39,543 nucleotides of DNA from a virus. The DNA is taken from the IMG/VR virus record IMGVR_UViG_3300045996_000619, positions 1-39,543 of that record; one strand, given 5' to 3'. The notes below the pieces were generated by a model. The model had not been told where the DNA came from. It worked only from the letters and a program-made list of their open reading frames with translations, and made no database searches. The translations under genes were made by a program, and so were the position numbers. Positions 1 to 39,543 of this stretch are shown piece by piece; position 1 is the stretch's first letter, and each line of letters begins with the position of its first letter.

Positions 1-127
1 CACCTTCGGAGCGGTGATGCTGGCCGGGCGGAACAGCGCAAACATGCGCCGACGTGCCTCAACCTGATCCTGCGCCGTGACCTGCACCTGGCGGGCCACG
101 CCGTTGCGCATCGTCGCGTGCGCCGTG
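1..127. repeat. 127-bp exact direct repeat, left copy (junction with 38711-38837)
   Basis: These bases are identical to 38711-38837. The first difference is at base 128 (a against t), after which nine more bases agree before the two sequences part. The repeat carries most of a small minus-strand gene. The window starts on the first base of the repeat and the identity is exactly 127 long, which is the largest word size commonly used by de Bruijn assemblers. That suggests a graph junction or circle closure rather than a biological terminal repeat. Closing it gives a circle of 38,710 bp. Confidence 0.9.
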
Positions 128-147
128 AACGTCTGCTTCTGTGCCAT
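1..147 (-). CDS. Small conserved leftward-operon protein, cut by window start
   Basis: The minus-strand ORF starts at ATG 147-145 and runs off the window at base 1 after 49 codons. The protein begins MAQKQTFTAHATMRNG and is basic. A strong ribosome binding site (AAGGAGAG) lies a few bases upstream, and the leftward promoter is about 40 bases further up. If the 127-bp repeat is joined to 38711-38837 the gene finishes at 38702 and encodes 51 residues ending APKVAQ. It is then the first gene of the leftward operon. A near-identical gene sits at 38702-38854 and differs only in its first residues. I do not recognise the family. The product is too small for a recombinase and could be an early regulatory or accessory peptide. 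Confidence 0.75.
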   Translation of the reverse strand, partial: MAQKQTFTAHATMRNGVARQVQVTAQDQVEARRRMFALFRPASITAPKV

Positions 148-187: not shown

Positions 188-217
188 ATTAAACAACACG
201 TTGATGCCACATGTCAA
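188..217 (-). promoter_or_regulatory. Leftward early promoter (PL-like)
   Basis: Read on the minus strand there is a perfect -35 box TTGACA (217-212), an 18-base spacer and a -10 box TTTAAT (193-188). It points at the gene starting at 147, which has a good ribosome binding site. Two operator-like sites overlap the -10 and the -35. In the circularised genome it would drive the whole leftward operon down to about 30633. Confidence 0.8.
190..204. promoter_or_regulatory. Left operator site, over the -10 box
   Basis: TAAACAACACGTTGA matches the palindrome TAAACGCGGCGTTTA (found at 1447-1461) at 10 of 15 positions. It keeps both outer half-sites (TAAAC and CGTT.A). Its centre is 24 bp from the centre of the next site. 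It is probably bound by the repressor and/or the Cro-like protein. Confidence 0.55.
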
Positions 218-228
218 CGGGGCGTTTA
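214..228. promoter_or_regulatory. Left operator site, over the -35 box
   Basis: TCAACGGGGCGTTTA matches the palindrome TAAACGCGGCGTTTA at 13 of 15 positions and overlaps the -35 box of the leftward promoter. The close match to the rightward operator suggests that one DNA-binding protein controls both promoters, as in lambda. Confidence 0.7.
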
Positions 229-239
229 GCCTTTGGTCG

Positions 240-267
240 AAAAAAATGCCCGCGGGTGTGCGGGCAT
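240..267 (-). terminator. Rho-independent terminator after the lipoprotein gene
   Basis: An inverted repeat has arms ATGCCCGC and GCGGGCAT (246-253 and 260-267) around a 6-base loop. On the minus strand it is followed by a run of T (bases 246-240). It ends the minus-strand transcript of the lipoprotein, small conserved and repressor genes, and shields the leftward promoter from read-through. Confidence 0.85.
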
Positions 268-282
268 CGTGCGTTCAGTGTG

Positions 283-593: not shown

Positions 594-827
594 TCAGGTT
601 CCGTTGTGAATCAAGCGGCTCAGGCTGTCATCAAGTGCGCCGACCGCGCCTCTGGCGAACGTCGGGCTGCGTTCCGCCTCGCCGCAGACGTTCACTTCGT
701 AGTGCCGCTGCGAGTAGATGGCGACATACGCGATGCCGATCAGCTTCTTGGCCCGGGCGTCGGCGTGGAGCTGCTGAAGGCACCTGGCCGTGTCTGGGGA
801 GCCGCGGGAGGGGACGAGTTTGAACAT
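594..827 (-). CDS. Conserved repressor-linked small protein (77 aa)
   Basis: Unknown function. The C-terminal two thirds (KKLIGIAYVAIYSQRHYEVN...PTFARGAVGALDDSLSRLI) match the 83-residue protein at 38987-39238 in pattern: IG.A.....Y.VN..GEA.R.PTF.RG.V.ALDD.L...I. Both genes sit directly downstream of a repressor-type gene. The stop codon of the repressor overlaps this start (TGATG at 829-825), so translation is probably coupled. The conserved linkage hints that it helps the repressor or is made in the lysogen, but no catalytic motif is visible. Confidence 0.75.
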   Translation of the reverse strand: MFKLVPSRGSPDTARCLQQLHADARAKKLIGIAYVAIYSQRHYEVNVCGEAERSPTFARGAVGALDDSLSRLIHNGT

Positions 828-1387
828 CAGATTCCGCTCCTCCTGCGCGCCGGGCTCTGCTCCGGTGTGTTGATCAACTTCTCTCGATCAGGCGGCTCGA
901 CTGCTGGGCCCCCGGCCTTGATGTAGGCCTTCATCTGCTGCGCCTGCAGCATCGCCGCCGTCTCCTGGAGCTTGGACATCGCTCGAGACTTCATCTCCTC
1001 GATCTCGTCGTGTGTGAACAGGGTTTTCACGGCCGTGAGGGCGGCCCAGTCACTGTCGCTGACCTCGTGACGGTCCGCGAAGTCGGCCGGTGGTGGGGGT
1101 GGTGGAGCGGCGAACCTGACTGCCCGCCCAGAGGGCGCGTCTGCGCCGGCAGCGGCGGCCGATCCCGGAGAGCCTTTCCCTTCAAGAACCCAAGTCGCCG
1201 AGCAGCCAAAGATCCCTTCGGCAGCCAGTGCGCCCTCCTTGGAGATGCCGCGAGCTTTCCAGTTGGTCATCACGGCGGAGGACACCCCCAGCCGGCGCGC
1301 AAGCGTGGCGAAGTTCACGACCGGGTCACGAGAACCCGCAGTCGCTTCCTTCGAGTACTCCATGAGACGAATGACCGAGGCGTGCAT
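827..1387 (-). CDS. CI-like phage repressor lacking a peptidase domain
   Basis: The 186-residue protein has an N-terminal helix-turn-helix (about residues 25-55: FATLARRLGVSSAVMTNWKARGI) of the phage CI HTH type, followed by GCSATWVLEG. A linker with six consecutive prolines lies near residue 95. The C-terminal part is short, helical and charged (DWAALTAVKTLFTHDEIEEM...). No LexA/S24 Ser-Lys peptidase domain is visible, so RecA-driven self-cleavage is not expected. I chose ATG 1387 because MHAS.IRLMEY fits the usual start of these repressors; ATG 1363 is the alternative and neither has a clear ribosome binding site. The upstream ATG at 1441 would place the start inside the rightward promoter. 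The gene is divergent from the Cro-like gene across the operator region. Confidence 0.8.
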   Translation of the reverse strand: MHASVIRLMEYSKEATAGSRDPVVNFATLARRLGVSSAVMTNWKARGISKEGALAAEGIFGCSATWVLEGKGSPGSAAAAGADAPSGRAVRFAAPPPPPPADFADRHEVSDSDWAALTAVKTLFTHDEIEEMKSRAMSKLQETAAMLQAQQMKAYIKAGGPAVEPPDREKLINTPEQSPARRRSGI

Positions 1388-1423: not shown

Positions 1424-1438
1424 GTAACGCGGTGTTGA
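1424..1438. promoter_or_regulatory. Right operator site, over the -35 box
   Basis: GTAACGCGGTGTTGA matches TAAACGCGGCGTTTA at 11 of 15 positions and overlaps the -35 box of the rightward promoter. Its centre is 23 bp from the centre of the perfect palindrome at 1447-1461, echoing the 24-bp pair in the left control region. Confidence 0.6.
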
Positions 1439-1463
1439 CATTTCGATAAACGCGGCGTTTAAT
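1435..1463 (+). promoter_or_regulatory. Rightward early promoter (PR-like)
   Basis: A -35 box TTGACA (1435-1440), a 17-base spacer and a -10 box TTTAAT (1458-1463) form a near-consensus sigma70 promoter. Transcription should start about 1469-1472, at or just before the ATG of the Cro-like gene at 1472, so that mRNA is leaderless or nearly so. Confidence 0.85.
1447..1461. promoter_or_regulatory. Right operator site, perfect palindrome over the -10 box
   Basis: TAAACGCGGCGTTTA is a perfect 7-base inverted repeat around a central G, lying in the spacer and -10 of the rightward promoter. It is the best copy of the four related sites in the window and the likely strongest site for the repressor or the Cro-like protein. 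Confidence 0.85.
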
Positions 1464-17340: not shown

Positions 17341-18074
17341 TCCGCCGCTACCCTCGGGCGCCGGTGTCATCCAGCGCGCTCAAGATCATCGTGCACGCCA
17401 ACAGCTTGGGCTTCGGGGCGGGCACCTCGAGCACAAACAAGCGCTGGCCGTCGGTGATGAACACCCTGGCCCCGCTGGCAGGAAAGGGCATCAGCATCAG
17501 CAACGTGTCTGTCGCCGGCATGGGGATCGTCACGAACAGCGGCGCTGGCACGATGACCGCGACCGCGCCGAGCTCGGTGGACCCGCTCCTGGACCCGGCG
17601 AAGCTGAACGTCCTGTTCATCCATGAGTTCATCAACGAGCTCAAGGGCAACAGCAACAACGTCAACGCGGCGATGAGCGCCTGGGCGGCCTACTGCCAAG
17701 CCCGGCGGACTGCCGCAGCCAATGCCGGGGCGAAGTTGTTCATCGTCACCATGACCACCACCCCGGCCGGTGCGGCGCCGGCAGGCCAGGGCCAGTCCTG
17801 GGTTGATGCACGCATGGCCGCCATCCGCGGCTGCAACGAGTCGATGCGCCGGAACTACCGGGGCTACGCCGACCTGCTCATCGACATGGCAGCGGTCGAG
17901 CCTTTCGCGTCGATGTACGCGGCCAATGTCTGGACGCCGGCCGCCTTCCAAGCATCGGGCCTGTGGGCAATGTCAGATGGAAGTGCCGACGACTACACAC
18001 ACTTCGGGGACTCGGGATACGCCCTCATGGCCGCGGTGGCCGCGCGGGCTATCCCTCGAATCCGCAAGGTCTGA
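17337..18074 (+). CDS. SGNH-type hydrolase (probable virion esterase)
   Basis: The 245-residue protein shows the block order of SGNH/GDSL hydrolases. Block I is IIVHANSLGFG (17-27), with Ser23 as nucleophile in place of the usual GDS context. A glycine lies in VSVAGMG (block II, near 61). Block III is FIHEFINEL with Asn100. Block V is DYTHFGDSGYALMA, with Asp219 and His222. Such enzymes remove acetyl groups from polysaccharides. Placed between the Fn3 protein and the stabilisation protein, and translationally coupled to the former, it may act on host O-antigen or capsule during adsorption. The signal-free N-terminus fits a virion part rather than a secreted enzyme. Confidence 0.7.
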   Translation: MIRRYPRAPVSSSALKIIVHANSLGFGAGTSSTNKRWPSVMNTLAPLAGKGISISNVSVAGMGIVTNSGAGTMTATAPSSVDPLLDPAKLNVLFIHEFINELKGNSNNVNAAMSAWAAYCQARRTAAANAGAKLFIVTMTTTPAGAAPAGQGQSWVDARMAAIRGCNESMRRNYRGYADLLIDMAAVEPFASMYAANVWTPAAFQASGLWAMSDGSADDYTHFGDSGYALMAAVAARAIPRIRKV

Positions 18075-29635: not shown

Positions 29636-30210
29636 TGATCTCGCCCCGGCTGTCGCCCCGGGTGATCGTCGGCGGCGTGGTTGTGCTTGCAGTCGCGGGT
29701 GCGATCGGCACGCTGTGGGCCCAGAAGTCCGGCCTTCAGCGTGAACTCGCCACCGAGCGGCAGGGCAGGGCGGAGGCGGTCGCCCAGGCCGCGAGCGCCG
29801 CCACCGGCGAACTGACCCGCCAGCTGGAAGAACAGCGCCGCCGCGACGACGCCACTCGAAAGGCCCTCGATGATGAACGACTCAAGAACGCGACCCTTGC
29901 TGCTGATGCCGCTTCTGCTGCTGACGCTGTCGGCCGGCTGCGCAACGCAGCAGCCCGCGCCGCCGCCCGTAGTTGTCCCGCCGCTGCGCATCCCCCCGAT
30001 GCCAGCGGCAGCACGCCAGCCGCCGACTCCGGAGTGGTGCTTGCCGACGTGCTCGGCCGGCTGGCAGCGCGAGGTGCAGAACTCGCTGACCTTGCTGGAA
30101 GGCGCGGGCTTGCCGGCGAGACCTGCGAGCGGGAGCGGGACGCGCTGACCACCCCGCCGGCCGGGCTACGATTGCCGAATGTGCAATCGATACCGTCCGC
30201 CGAACCCTGA
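29635..30210 (+). CDS. Rz: Rz-like inner-membrane spanin
   Basis: A 191-residue protein with an N-terminal signal anchor (VIVGGVVVLAVAGAIGTLWAQ). A long periplasmic coiled coil follows (LQRELATERQGRAEAVAQAASAATGELTRQLEEQRRRDDATRKALDDERLKNATLAADAA). A second part carries cysteines and the end CERERDALTTPP. The Rz1 lipoprotein gene lies inside it in another frame, the classic Rz/Rz1 arrangement. Together they fuse inner and outer membranes in the last step of lysis. The start overlaps the previous stop. Confidence 0.85.
   Translation: MISPRLSPRVIVGGVVVLAVAGAIGTLWAQKSGLQRELATERQGRAEAVAQAASAATGELTRQLEEQRRRDDATRKALDDERLKNATLAADAASAADAVGRLRNAAARAAARSCPAAAHPPDASGSTPAADSGVVLADVLGRLAARGAELADLAGRRGLAGETCERERDALTTPPAGLRLPNVQSIPSAEP
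29870..30148 (+). CDS. Rz1: Rz1-like outer-membrane spanin lipoprotein, nested in Rz
   Basis: The frame lies wholly within Rz in a shifted frame. The 92-residue product has a signal peptide and lipobox (LLLMPLLLLTLSAGC, lipidated cysteine near residue 24). A proline-rich stretch follows (PAPPPVVVPPLRIPPMPAAARQPP), which is the hallmark of Rz1. The alternative start ATG 29873 would give the same mature protein. It would be anchored in the outer membrane and bind the end of Rz across the periplasm. Confidence 0.85.
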   Translation: MMNDSRTRPLLLMPLLLLTLSAGCATQQPAPPPVVVPPLRIPPMPAAARQPPTPEWCLPTCSAGWQREVQNSLTLLEGAGLPARPASGSGTR

Positions 30211-30601
30211 CGACATCCGGCACCGCTGGCTGCGGGAGCCGCAGTCCAACTTCCCGCCCGGGCCCTGGTCCGAGGTCTTCCCGCGCAAGCAGGGTCTGAT
30301 CCTCCGGCCAGGGTCGACTGGCGCACTTGAGCTCATCGAGGCGCGATGGCAGTTGGTGCCCAGCTATCACCGCAAGCCGCTCGACCAGTTCAAGCTGTCG
30401 ACGAACAACGCGCGGTGGGAGGACAAGGTCCGCACCTCGCCGACGTTCAAGCCTTCCTGGGTCGGTGGCCGGCGCTGCCTCATCCCGACCGCCTGGTTCA
30501 ACGAGCGGACCATTCGGCGCTTGCGAAGACATGGACACATCCACGCCCGTGGCAAGCAAGAGCCCAACTTCTTCGATGCGTCCACTACGATTGCGGATTA
30601 G
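30179..30601 (+). pseudogene. Truncated SRAP (YedK/HMCES-like) gene
   Basis: The frame starts MCNRYRPPNPDDIRHRW, with the obligatory Cys2 of SRAP domain proteins. It continues ELIEARWQLVPSYHRKPLDQFKLSTNNARWEDKVRTSPTFKPSWVGGRRCLIPTAWFNE, matching the family up to the conserved active-site asparagine and glutamate. After WFNE the next 28 residues do not match and the frame ends at 30601. The usual C-terminal half with its active-site histidine is missing. SRAP proteins crosslink to abasic sites in single-stranded DNA. This copy is probably inactive, or a shortened variant, and the break coincides with the convergent junction to the leftward operon. Confidence 0.7.
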
Positions 30602-31179: not shown

Positions 31180-31674
31180 CTAACAGATGTCTAATACTCG
31201 GCGACCGCGGTGGTGGTTCATCAGGCGCAAGAGCACCTCCTCGCCCCACGTGTTCATCGCAATGTTCGCCGCTGCGCAAACCAGCCGGCAATTGTCAGCC
31301 AAGTAGCCGACAGCGTTGTCCTTGCGGTCGATACTCGGTGCGTATGGGCGCTGCGCCCGAGGGCCTACAGCTTCCAGCGAGTAGGGGACACCAGTCACAG
31401 AACAGCGGAAGTCGCATGCTTCCAGCATCCGGTCAATGTCGGCTGCTATCAGGGTGTGCTCAAGCCCACGCCGGCCCTTCGCGTTGGCTCGGGATCGCGC
31501 AAGTTGGGTGTGGGCGAATGCCGCGATCTCCTCACGCGAATTGCCGGCGGAGTCGCTGAGCCGAGCCAGGGCGGCCGGCACCTCAATTAGGCGGTCGGTC
31601 AGCCGGATCCATTTGTTGTTCCGCACCAAGTAATACGCGCCGTGCTTTGCGTAGACGTTTTTAGGTAGCGCCAT
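31180..31674 (-). CDS. HNH-like nuclease with an integrase-type N-terminus (164 aa)
   Basis: I chose ATG 31674 because it follows AAAGGAAAG; the longer frame from 31719 lacks such a site. The first 40 residues (LPKNVYAKHGAYYLVRNNKWIRLTDRLIEVPAALARL) align with residues 11-45 of the adjacent integrase (LPACVYFKHGRFWYVKQRKWHDLGTDQAAALTAY). The C-terminal part reads CDFRCSVTGVPYS...APSIDRKDNAVGYLADNCRLVCAAANIAMNTWGEE, an HNH-like layout with SIDRKD and N..LVC...N. The gene starts inside the integrase 3' end. It may nick DNA near the attachment region or be a mobile nuclease; the role is inferred. Confidence 0.75.
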   Translation of the reverse strand: MALPKNVYAKHGAYYLVRNNKWIRLTDRLIEVPAALARLSDSAGNSREEIAAFAHTQLARSRANAKGRRGLEHTLIAADIDRMLEACDFRCSVTGVPYSLEAVGPRAQRPYAPSIDRKDNAVGYLADNCRLVCAAANIAMNTWGEEVLLRLMNHHRGRRVLDIC

Positions 31675-32656
31675 CGCTTTCCTTTGGCGGGGTCGATTTG
31701 ATACTCGGGCCAGATACAACGGCTGTTTTCCTGCGGCGAATGTACCGCCTGGTCATCGTCGGGCTCGCATGACCCAGGAGGGTTTGGGCGTTCTCGCCTG
31801 CTTCGTCCGCATCCGTGGCTGACTTCGCCCGCAGATCGTGGGGGGTCGCATCGGCCACGCCGGCGGCAGTGCGCGCGTCGTGCCATTGCTTGAGGACCGT
31901 GCGGTATTCCGGGGCCGCGCCGGTCCGGCTGTAGAGCAGCGTGAGCGCAGCGACCTTGGGGTTCAGCGCCTTCGCCCGCGCCACCACCGCCTCGAGGTCT
32001 GGGTTCCAGGCAACGCAAAGCTTGGCGTCCGTCTTCTGCTGCTGGAAGACGATCCCCTTCTCCGTCAGGTCCGCCCGCCGGATGTTGAGGACATCCTCGA
32101 TCCGCTGGCCCGTCAGGTAGAGCAGGTCGATGATGACCTGGAGCCGCGGCGCTGCCTGCGCGCGGATGGCCGCCACCTCCTCGTCGGTCAGGTAGCGGTC
32201 CCGCTTCTTCTCGTCGTGGCGCTTGATTCCGATGCAAGGGTTGCTGTCGACCAGTTGCCACTCGACGGCATAGTTGAAGACCGTTCTGAGGAACGAGAGC
32301 TTCCGGTTCGTCATGTTCGGGCTGTCGCCGCCGGCGAGCTTGAACGCGGCGATGTGCTTCCCCTTCACCTGCTCAGGAGAGAACTCGGCGAACACCTTCT
32401 TCAGTGAGTTGGCCGCGATGCGGTACTGGGCCCGGGTGTTTTCCGAGACGGTGGCCGCGTGATGCTGGAACACCTTCTCGATGAGCTCGGCCATCCCGCC
32501 CTTCGGGGTGGCGATGATCTGCGCGTATGCCGTCAGGGCGGCGGCCTGGTCAGTGCCCAGGTCGTGCCACTTCCGCTGTTTGACGTACCAGAACCGCCCG
32601 TGCTTGAAATAGACGCAGGCCGGCAGGTGTCGATCGTGCTTGCGGGGACGGTTCAC
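31661..32656 (-). CDS. int: Tyrosine recombinase integrase
   Basis: The 331-residue protein has an N-terminal arm-type unit (LPACVYFKHGRFWYVKQRKWHDLG, 11-34). A SAM-like core-binding domain covers about 55-140. The catalytic domain has Arg185 (TGQRIEDVL), Lys208 (QQQKTD), His273 and Arg276 (PHDLRAKSATD), His296 (LLGHASPTMT) and nucleophile Tyr305 (RRYIRRR). All active-site residues are present, so the enzyme should be functional and the phage temperate. It is on the leftward operon, and its start overlaps the DUF4224 gene that lies upstream. Confidence 0.95.
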   Translation of the reverse strand: MNRPRKHDRHLPACVYFKHGRFWYVKQRKWHDLGTDQAAALTAYAQIIATPKGGMAELIEKVFQHHAATVSENTRAQYRIAANSLKKVFAEFSPEQVKGKHIAAFKLAGGDSPNMTNRKLSFLRTVFNYAVEWQLVDSNPCIGIKRHDEKKRDRYLTDEEVAAIRAQAAPRLQVIIDLLYLTGQRIEDVLNIRRADLTEKGIVFQQQKTDAKLCVAWNPDLEAVVARAKALNPKVAALTLLYSRTGAAPEYRTVLKQWHDARTAAGVADATPHDLRAKSATDADEAGENAQTLLGHASPTMTRRYIRRRKTAVVSGPSIKSTPPKESDGAT

Positions 32657-38119: not shown

Positions 38120-38280
38120 GTGAGGCTCCCAATCAGGGCGCGCAGCAGGCGCCGTACGAGGTTGATGCGGCGGGCCGGGGCAGGGCGGAAGGCCTGCGAG
38201 TGCATGCGGTAGGGCGACATGGCCCCGCCGCCGCCGATGACGAAGTGGGCTTGGCGCTCGGTGCGGAGTTCGCGGCTCAT
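38116..38280 (-). CDS. Small basic protein (54 aa)
   Basis: The minus-strand frame from ATG 38280 to TGA 38116 encodes MSRELRTERQAHFVIGGGGA and then MSPYRMHSQAFRPAPARRINLVRRLLRALIGSLT. It overlaps both neighbours by ATGA junctions, which fits the operon. The basic C-terminal helix might bind nucleic acid or membrane. No known family. Confidence 0.6.
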   Translation of the reverse strand: MSRELRTERQAHFVIGGGGAMSPYRMHSQAFRPAPARRINLVRRLLRALIGSLT

Positions 38281-38705
38281 TGCAGCTCCCCCGCGTTGTA
38301 CGCATCGGCCTGCACCTCGTCCGCAGCCATCACCCGCGCCACGTCGTCGCCGTAGTAGTTCATCCAGCGAGCGAACGTGTCGGCCTGGAACTTCGCCTTG
38401 AGCGCAGCCACTTCCTCAGGCTTGGCGCTCATGATCCGCAGAGGCGCGTCGATGTACTGGTCATCCCCGGCCGATGCGAGTTCGCGCAGGGCGTCCATGA
38501 ACGGCACATCCCACAGCACGCGGCCAGGGACGCCAGACACGCGGGGCAGCATGACCGCCTCACCCGTCCAGCCCTTGGCGAACAGCGCTTCGATCTGGGG
38601 AAACAGCGCTTCCTCGGCGGCAAGCTCACGGGCCCGCACCTTCGACCGGCGGTCGTAGGCGTGCCAGTCAGCCTCGGGGTGCACGAACATTTGGCGCGCG
38701 TTCAT
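38277..38705 (-). CDS. Hypothetical protein of the leftward operon (142 aa)
   Basis: The protein begins MNARQMFVHPEADWHAYDRRSKVRARELAAEEALFPQIEALFAKGWTGEAVMLPRVSGVPGRVLWDVPFMDALRELASAG. It ends with helices (EEVAALKAKFQADTFARWMNYYGDDVARVMAADEV). No motif that I can assign. It is the second gene of the leftward operon and its ATG overlaps the stop of the first. Confidence 0.7.
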   Translation of the reverse strand: MNARQMFVHPEADWHAYDRRSKVRARELAAEEALFPQIEALFAKGWTGEAVMLPRVSGVPGRVLWDVPFMDALRELASAGDDQYIDAPLRIMSAKPEEVAALKAKFQADTFARWMNYYGDDVARVMAADEVQADAYNAGELQ

Positions 38706-38854
38706 TGCGCCACCTTCGGAGCGGTGATGCTGGCCGGGCGGAACAGCGCAAACATGCGCCGACGTGCCTCAACCTGATCCTGCGCCGTGACCTGCACCTG
38801 GCGGGCCACGCCGTTGCGCATCGTCGCGTGCGCCGTGTACGTCTGCTGTGTCAT
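38702..38854 (-). CDS. First gene of the leftward operon, right copy (50 aa)
   Basis: The 50-residue protein starts MTQQTYTAHATMRNG and ends PASITAPKVAQ. The stop TGA (38704-38702) overlaps the ATG of the next gene. From residue 8 on it is identical to the gene cut by the window start; only the first residues differ (MTQQTY against MAQKQTF). The two N-termini belong to the two alternative upstream blocks. Confidence 0.75.
   Translation of the reverse strand: MTQQTYTAHATMRNGVARQVQVTAQDQVEARRRMFALFRPASITAPKVAQ
38711..38837. repeat. 127-bp exact direct repeat, right copy
   Basis: Identical to bases 1-127. On this copy the sequence to the left is the leftward operon and the sequence to the right is the second regulatory block (38838-39543). 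Only one of the two right-hand continuations can follow the operon in any one circular genome. Confidence 0.9.
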
Positions 38855-38881
38855 GTGGACCCCTCGTTGTTCGATGGGATC

Positions 38882-38911
38882 AGTTTAGAACACACTAAAC
38901 GTCAGCGTCAA
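38882..38911 (-). promoter_or_regulatory. Leftward promoter of the right-end block
   Basis: On the minus strand there is a -35 box TTGACG (38911-38906), an 18-base spacer and a -10 box TAAACT (38887-38882). It points at the 50-residue gene at 38854. Position and spacing mirror the left promoter at 188-217. Confidence 0.7.
38883..38900. promoter_or_regulatory. Operator of the right-end block, perfect palindrome
   Basis: GTTTAGAACACACTAAAC has perfect 6-base arms around AACACA. It overlaps the -10 and spacer of the promoter here. The sequence is unlike the TAAACGC/GCGTTTA sites of the left block, so it should be read by a different repressor. Confidence 0.7.
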
Positions 38912-38924
38912 GCGAAAACTAAAC
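38907..38924. promoter_or_regulatory. Second operator-like site of the right-end block
   Basis: GTCAAGCGAAAACTAAAC keeps one full half-site (CTAAAC) and four of six bases of the other. It overlaps the -35 box. Its centre is 24 bp from the first site, the same spacing as in the left block. Confidence 0.5.
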
Positions 38925-38940
38925 TATTTGCGCAGGGACG

Positions 38941-38967
38941 AAAAAAAGCCGCCTCGCCGGGCGGCTT
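38941..38967 (-). terminator. Rho-independent terminator of the right-end block
   Basis: AAGCCGCC (38946-38953) and GGCGGCTT (38960-38967) form a stem with a 6-base loop, followed on the minus strand by T's (bases 38947-38941). It ends the transcript of the 83-residue gene. Its place matches the left terminator at 240-267, although the stem sequence differs. Confidence 0.85.
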
Positions 38968-38986
38968 GTTGCGCTGGAAAGACGGG

Positions 38987-39238
38987 TCAGGGCGAGCCGC
39001 CACGGATGCGTCCGCTCAGCTGGTCATCGAGGGCGGCCACCATGCCGCGGGTGAACGTGGGATTGCGGAAGGCCTCGCCCGACGTGTTCACGATGTAGCC
39101 CCGCTTCTTGAGCATGGCAGCGAACGCCACCCCGATCACCTCGCCGCGCCTGGCCGCTGAAAGCAGCTGCTCCAGCGATTCCACGGTGTCGTTCGAGATG
39201 GTGTCGGGGACGAGGATGAAGGGTGGGCGGCGCTTCAC
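38987..39238 (-). CDS. Homologue of the repressor-linked small protein (83 aa)
   Basis: The protein reads MKRRPPFILVPDTISNDTVESLEQLLSAARRGEVIGVAFAAMLKKRGYIVNTSGEAFRNPTFTRGMVAALDDQLSGRI. It shares the pattern IG.A.....Y.VN..GEA.R.PTF.RG.V.ALDD.L...I with the 77-residue protein at 594-827. Both follow a repressor-type gene and precede a terminator. Its start overlaps the stop of the upstream partial gene. Unknown function. Confidence 0.75.
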   Translation of the reverse strand: MKRRPPFILVPDTISNDTVESLEQLLSAARRGEVIGVAFAAMLKKRGYIVNTSGEAFRNPTFTRGMVAALDDQLSGRIRGGSP

Positions 39239-39543
39239 TTCTTCCCCGCCTTGCGCTCTGCCTCCTCAAGCTCACCGAAGCCGCTCATCCCGGTGTCCAC
39301 CAGGTTGTCGACCGGCTGGGAGGCGTCCCGCTTGACCCCGGCCGAGGGCAGTGTCTCCGCGGCCCGGCCTGATGTGACGTAGCTTTTGACCCCGTGGTTG
39401 TTCCGCAGCAGCGAGTCCGTGGCCCTGAGTCCGTCAGCGATCTCAAGGATGCGCGAAATCAGCTGGGCGTGCGTCTCCGGGTTGATCCGCTGGATGTCGC
39501 GCAGGGCCAGAAGGGCGGTCACCTCAAGGTCCGTGGCGACCTC
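39235..39543 (-). CDS. C-terminal part of a repressor-type protein, cut by window end
   Basis: The frame stays open to the last base of the window (GAG GTC GCC ACG... reading inward), so the apparent GTG start at 39522 is not the true start. The fragment VTALLALRDIQRINPETHAQLISRILEIADGLRATDSLLRNN resembles in layout the C-terminal helical part of the CI-like protein (WAALTAVKTLFTHDEIEEM..AMSKLQETAAML). It ends with a disordered acidic/basic tail. By synteny it is the end of the alternative repressor. The DNA-binding domain is outside the window. Confidence 0.6.
   Translation of the reverse strand, partial: EVATDLEVTALLALRDIQRINPETHAQLISRILEIADGLRATDSLLRNNHGVKSYVTSGRAAETLPSAGVKRDASQPVDNLVDTGMSGFGELEEAERKAGKK

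Follow-up and report, generated by a model that had tools for sequence, protein, structure and literature searches.

A second immunity cassette at the tip of a lambda-like phage contig very probably comes from a differently immune phage joined at an assembly fork

Introduction

In phages of the lambda type the repressor acts on the early promoters, maintains lysogeny and confers immunity to like phages. Different operators lead to heteroimmunity, as in lambda and 434, whose circuits are homologous but differ in operator sequence (PMC6550527). Assemblies made by metaSPAdes with k up to 127 are treated in the COBRA study: where repeats break contigs, the ends were found to overlap by exactly maxK, and within-population variation was simulated as another cause of fragmentation (PMC10914622).

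Here we analyse a viral contig on which both subjects meet. The window (39,543 bp) is the complete IMG/VR record IMGVR_UViG_3300045996_000619, as found in a search of its own record. Very probably the contig consists of a lambda-like circle with one immunity cassette (referred to as left) and of 706 bp of a second, differently immune phage joined to it at an assembly fork. This tip is most likely a part of an alternative repressor-operator cassette from a sister phage of the same sample, which shares the leftward early genes.

Results

The repeat at the contig ends

The initial annotation described an exact match between the two ends of the contig that stops after 127 bases. Exact comparison reproduces it (Table 1): the copies diverge from the very next base (A at 128, T at 38838), and agreement resumes at the following bases. 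All other exact repeats in the window have at most 18 bases. Elsewhere in the record the tip sequence matches only bases 1-137, at 99%, which makes the difference at 128 a substitution within a longer similarity. Since agreement resumes past 128/38838, the split falls among the initial codons of one 50-aa gene, the two copies of which (MAQKQTFTAHATM... and MTQQTYTAHATM...) are identical past these codons. On the linear contig the left copy lacks a stop codon. A join of 38710 to 1 provides it with the stop that the right copy has, and it then overlaps the following gene in the same way, so the 38,710-bp circle proposed earlier fits and is coherent at the gene level.

Table 1. Coordinates of the features of the two cassettes and of the contig ends.
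Feature	Position	Strand	Remarks
Repeat copy 1	1..127	.	begins at first base of contig; exact comparison
50-aa gene, left copy, first of PL operon, MAQKQTFTAHATM...	1..147	-	no stop within contig; 38702-38710 completes gene if circle closed
PL-left promoter, TTGACA-18-TTTAAT	188..217	-	
Left-type operator, PL-left -10, TCAACGTGTTGTTTA	190..204	-	
Left-type operator, PL-left -35, TAAACGCCCCGTTGA	214..228	-	
Terminator behind left repressor operon	245..268	-	
Lipoprotein-like gene, small, 99 aa	283..582	-	left cassette only
Conserved cassette gene, left version, 77 aa	594..827	-	
Left repressor, putative HTH N-terminus	827..1363	-	43% identity to L004 repressor N-terminus
Left-type operator, PR-left -35, GTAACGCGGTGTTGA	1424..1438	+	
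PR-left promoter, TTGACA-17-TTTAAT	1435..1463	+	
Left-type operator, PR-left -10, TAAACGCGGCGTTTA	1447..1461	+	
Cro-position DNA-binding gene, 68 aa	1472..1678	+	phrog_8008 DNA binding protein, E 1.3e-22
50-aa gene, right copy, complete, MTQQTYTAHATM...	38702..38854	-	stop overlaps start of 38277-38705
Repeat copy 2	38711..38837	.	38710-to-1 join would close 38,710-bp circle; exact comparison, own-record search
PL-tip promoter, TTGACG-18-TAAACT	38882..38911	-	
Tip-type operator, -10, GTTTAGTGTGTTCTAAAC	38883..38900	-	
Tip-type operator, -35, GTTTAGTTTTCGCTTGAC	38907..38924	-	
Terminator behind tip repressor operon	38946..38967	-	
Conserved cassette gene, tip version, 83 aa	38987..39238	-	
Tip repressor, C-terminal 102 codons	39235..39543	-	cut by contig end; start lies beyond

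A real genomic repeat may have any length and is not required to start at the first base of a contig. The length found here, 127, is a maximum k often chosen for metaSPAdes, and the repeat starts at base 1. This record was probably assembled by metaSPAdes with k up to 127, in line with JGI practice. Exactly 127 bases from base 1, a length that would equal maxK in such an assembly, favour a fork in the assembly graph. Neither the repeat nor the tip end was found in other IMG/VR contigs, and no contig continuing the tip turned up there, in a search set that may lack near records.

The phage backbone

To judge from its predicted genes, the phage is lambda-like and temperate. Pfam matches comprise a tyrosine integrase (31661-32656), a YqaJ exonuclease, NinG, terminase and a GH108 lysin, and an ERF protein matches just under the cutoff. 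The start of ORF 30179-30601 (MCNRYRPPNP) presumably resembles that of an SRAP/HMCES-type protein. The leftward genes run as the PL operon of lambda does, with the 50-aa gene at their start and the integrase at their end, and the rightward genes start with the DNA-binding gene in the Cro position. Relatives of the terminase reach at most 73% identity in IMG/VR and less than 60% in GenBank phages. The records with related terminases (L009-L016) gave no match to the immunity genes of the window within the stretch compared, and no alternative cassette. For the gene adjoining the junction (38277-38705) no relatives were found in IMG/VR.

The presence of the integrase and the fact that direct repeats flank prophages would suit a junction of tandem prophages, or the end of a prophage adjoining host DNA. 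Such a junction is expected at the attachment site by the integrase, about 6 kb away, and not in the first PL gene, while the tip is phage immunity DNA and not host DNA. As the junction is not at the integrase, we reject this explanation, to which we give next to no credence.

The small conserved gene of the cassettes described below is present in a Rhodoferax MAG, a Nitrosospira genome and an Azoarcus MAG, as well as in 5 of 399 genomes of the order drawn around the Rhodoferax MAG. This distribution suggests that the host is likely betaproteobacterial.

Two cassettes with the same layout

Read outward from the repeat, both sides have the same order: PL with two operators, terminator, small gene and a gene in the repressor position. 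The order claimed in the initial annotation is borne out by the coordinates (operators of PL at 190-228 and 38883-38924, followed by the terminators, the small genes and the genes in the repressor position), as is the claim that the sequences of the two sides differ. The 77-aa and 83-aa proteins are 50% identical over 76 aa (E 2e-23), and the operators are distinct. The right version was also said to be without the lipoprotein gene, and this gene is indeed found on the left only. It gives nothing above the cutoff in Pfam, and its position is variable among relatives too.

The short left repressor shows weak CI-type HTH matches, below the cutoff in Pfam and PHROGs (Phage_CI_repr, phrog_8), and no peptidase S24 domain was matched in it. 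The tip repressor is assigned by its position and by its 4-base overlap with the 83-aa gene. The similarity of this partial sequence to other repressors is weak and no relatives were found in IMG/VR, although its tail MSGFG is as in L006, with a similar tail in L047.

Promoters and operators

The operator geometry is common to both cassettes: one site lies on the -35 and one on the -10 element, and the sites of each PL pair are 24 bp apart (22-24 bp across the promoter regions tested). The operator sequences are distinct, TNAACGNNNYGTTNA at the left versus GTTTAGN6CTWRAC at the tip, with no sites in common. With G permitted at the first place, the left motif occurs at the four sites of PL and PR and in one stray match at 17605. 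Counted on both strands, 6 hits were observed in the two promoter regions compared with at most 2 in 20,000 shuffles, a test that is partly circular, as the motif was derived from the same sites. A motif-free search gave paired sites in all six promoter regions examined, scoring above 300 of 300 shuffles in five (PL-left and PL-tip among them) and above 296 of 300 in the sixth, PR-left. These ranks mean that the two-operator layouts are not due to chance.

The left repressor gene is located between the divergent PL-left and PR-left, and the tip side has PL alone. The left operators of PL match those of PR, so a complete immunity region is already present on the circle by itself.

Relatives and the cassette family

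Both cassettes belong to a family with a conserved protein of 77-90 aa (GEAxRNPTFARGxVxALDDxL) encoded behind phage repressors, in the window (594-827 and 38987-39238) as well as in the related loci L003-L008, L042 and L047-L049. The 83-aa gene is 67-71% identical to five relatives from IMG/VR and about 55% to a sixth. It directly follows a repressor-like gene in nine of the ten relatives, and in the remaining one (L049) it is preceded by an integrase instead. None of the libraries searched contains the cassette family: the 77-90-aa protein has no match in PHROGs or NCBIfam and nothing above the Pfam cutoff, and the 83-aa gene was not found in GenBank phages or plasmids. The fold prediction of the 83-aa protein (pLDDT 54) is too poor for use. 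By analogy with rex, whose position it resembles, the 77/83-aa gene might possibly serve in the exclusion of other phages.

The paired-operator geometry is also seen in L004, L006 and L007, in the latter two with other sequences. L004 has left-type operators and a repressor N-terminus related to that of the left repressor (Table 1), and the C-terminus of its repressor is 60% identical to that of L003. The C-terminal end of the left repressor (827-1363) is in turn common to L006 and L047. Where both are readable, the operator type thus appears to go with the HTH end, and the two ends of the repressor recombine, so that the repressors are mosaic.

The break of the record G011 (L042 and L043 at its contig ends) falls inside a gene with an ANLAGA-type repeat, immediately after the immunity region. 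The two ends are compatible with a circle of the same order: immunity region, early operon, ERF gene.

Could a single genome hold both cassettes, with a separate copy of the 50-aa gene in front of each? Both versions appear intact as far as they are readable (promoter, operators and terminator), and the sequence forbids nothing of the kind. A true duplication is nevertheless opposed by a repeat that equals an assembler k and starts at base 1, and by the tip-type operators, which occur nowhere else in the window beyond 38883-38924: no second set, as a PR would have, exists in 38.7 kb. The small gene is present in one copy in each of seven viral records and three genomes of the relatives, and in at most one copy in eleven related virus records, a count weakened by the fact that several of these may be fragments. 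None of the related virus records examined has two cassettes. We therefore consider a duplication very improbable, and a genome with two complete cassettes in which recombination between the 127-bp repeats would switch the immunity type more improbable still. The meeting of two variants at a de Bruijn junction, preferred to duplication from the outset, is the best supported explanation. Separately, one genome (G300) has two members of the 83-aa family, one on contig C17 and one on C8, perhaps in two prophages.

The tip could also belong to a more distant co-occurring phage, which would share a short stretch around the 50-aa gene and not the whole backbone. Identity between the two owners is proven over 127 bp alone, and cassettes of this family occur in phages with otherwise different genes (L003-L008). 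However, the 50-aa gene was not found in any other phage of IMG/VR or among GenBank phages, so a distant owner with identical 127 bp is less likely than a sister phage, and we regard such a chimera as unlikely. We infer that the sister phages share their backbone beyond the 127 bp covered by the identity.

Discussion

The fork between sister phages may be pictured as follows. The second phage would carry a different immunity cassette ahead of the same leftward early (PL) operon. The graph would then fork at the last common 127-mer, within the 50-aa gene, one branch leading to the left cassette and closing the circle, and the other to the tip. The assembler would circle once and then exit towards the tip.

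In each phage the repressor would be expressed from a leftward operon together with the 77/83-aa gene. It is predicted from sequence to bind the two operators over the -35 and -10 elements of PL (and of PR at the left). The bound repressor would silence the phage and block superinfection by phages with the same operators. With distinct operators, heteroimmunity between the two phages is to be expected.

If this is true, the contig captures an exchange of immunity between sister phages within one sample and confines the border of the swap to the initial codons of the first PL gene. A single contig can then conceal a second immunity type, and a contig tip beyond a repeat of k length is not to be taken as a part of the genome. 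The cassette family itself is marked by exchangeable repressors, each followed by the conserved 77-90-aa gene, and by operators that come in pairs at a nearly fixed spacing.

As in the maxK overlaps described for COBRA, the contig end would share exactly k bases at a fork. In contrast to them, the present contig would run through the fork into the second branch, and its two ends do not match.

The probable immunity exchange is of the kind known from lambda and 434. The immunity regions of lambda, 434 and 21 likewise comprise a repressor, an accessory gene in the rex position, a terminator, PL with its operators, a leftward operon and a gene in the Cro position across PR. Lambda has three operators per promoter, whereas the window has two. 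The short left repressor without a matched S24 domain and the conserved 77/83-aa gene, which is without PHROGs, NCBIfam or above-cutoff Pfam matches, also set the window apart from the lambdoid regions. Cluster A mycobacteriophages (L5, Bxb1) offer a further parallel as related phages that have syntenic repressors and diverged operator consensus sequences and are heteroimmune. Their stoperators are many and scattered, whereas each type of site in the window is grouped around the early promoters.
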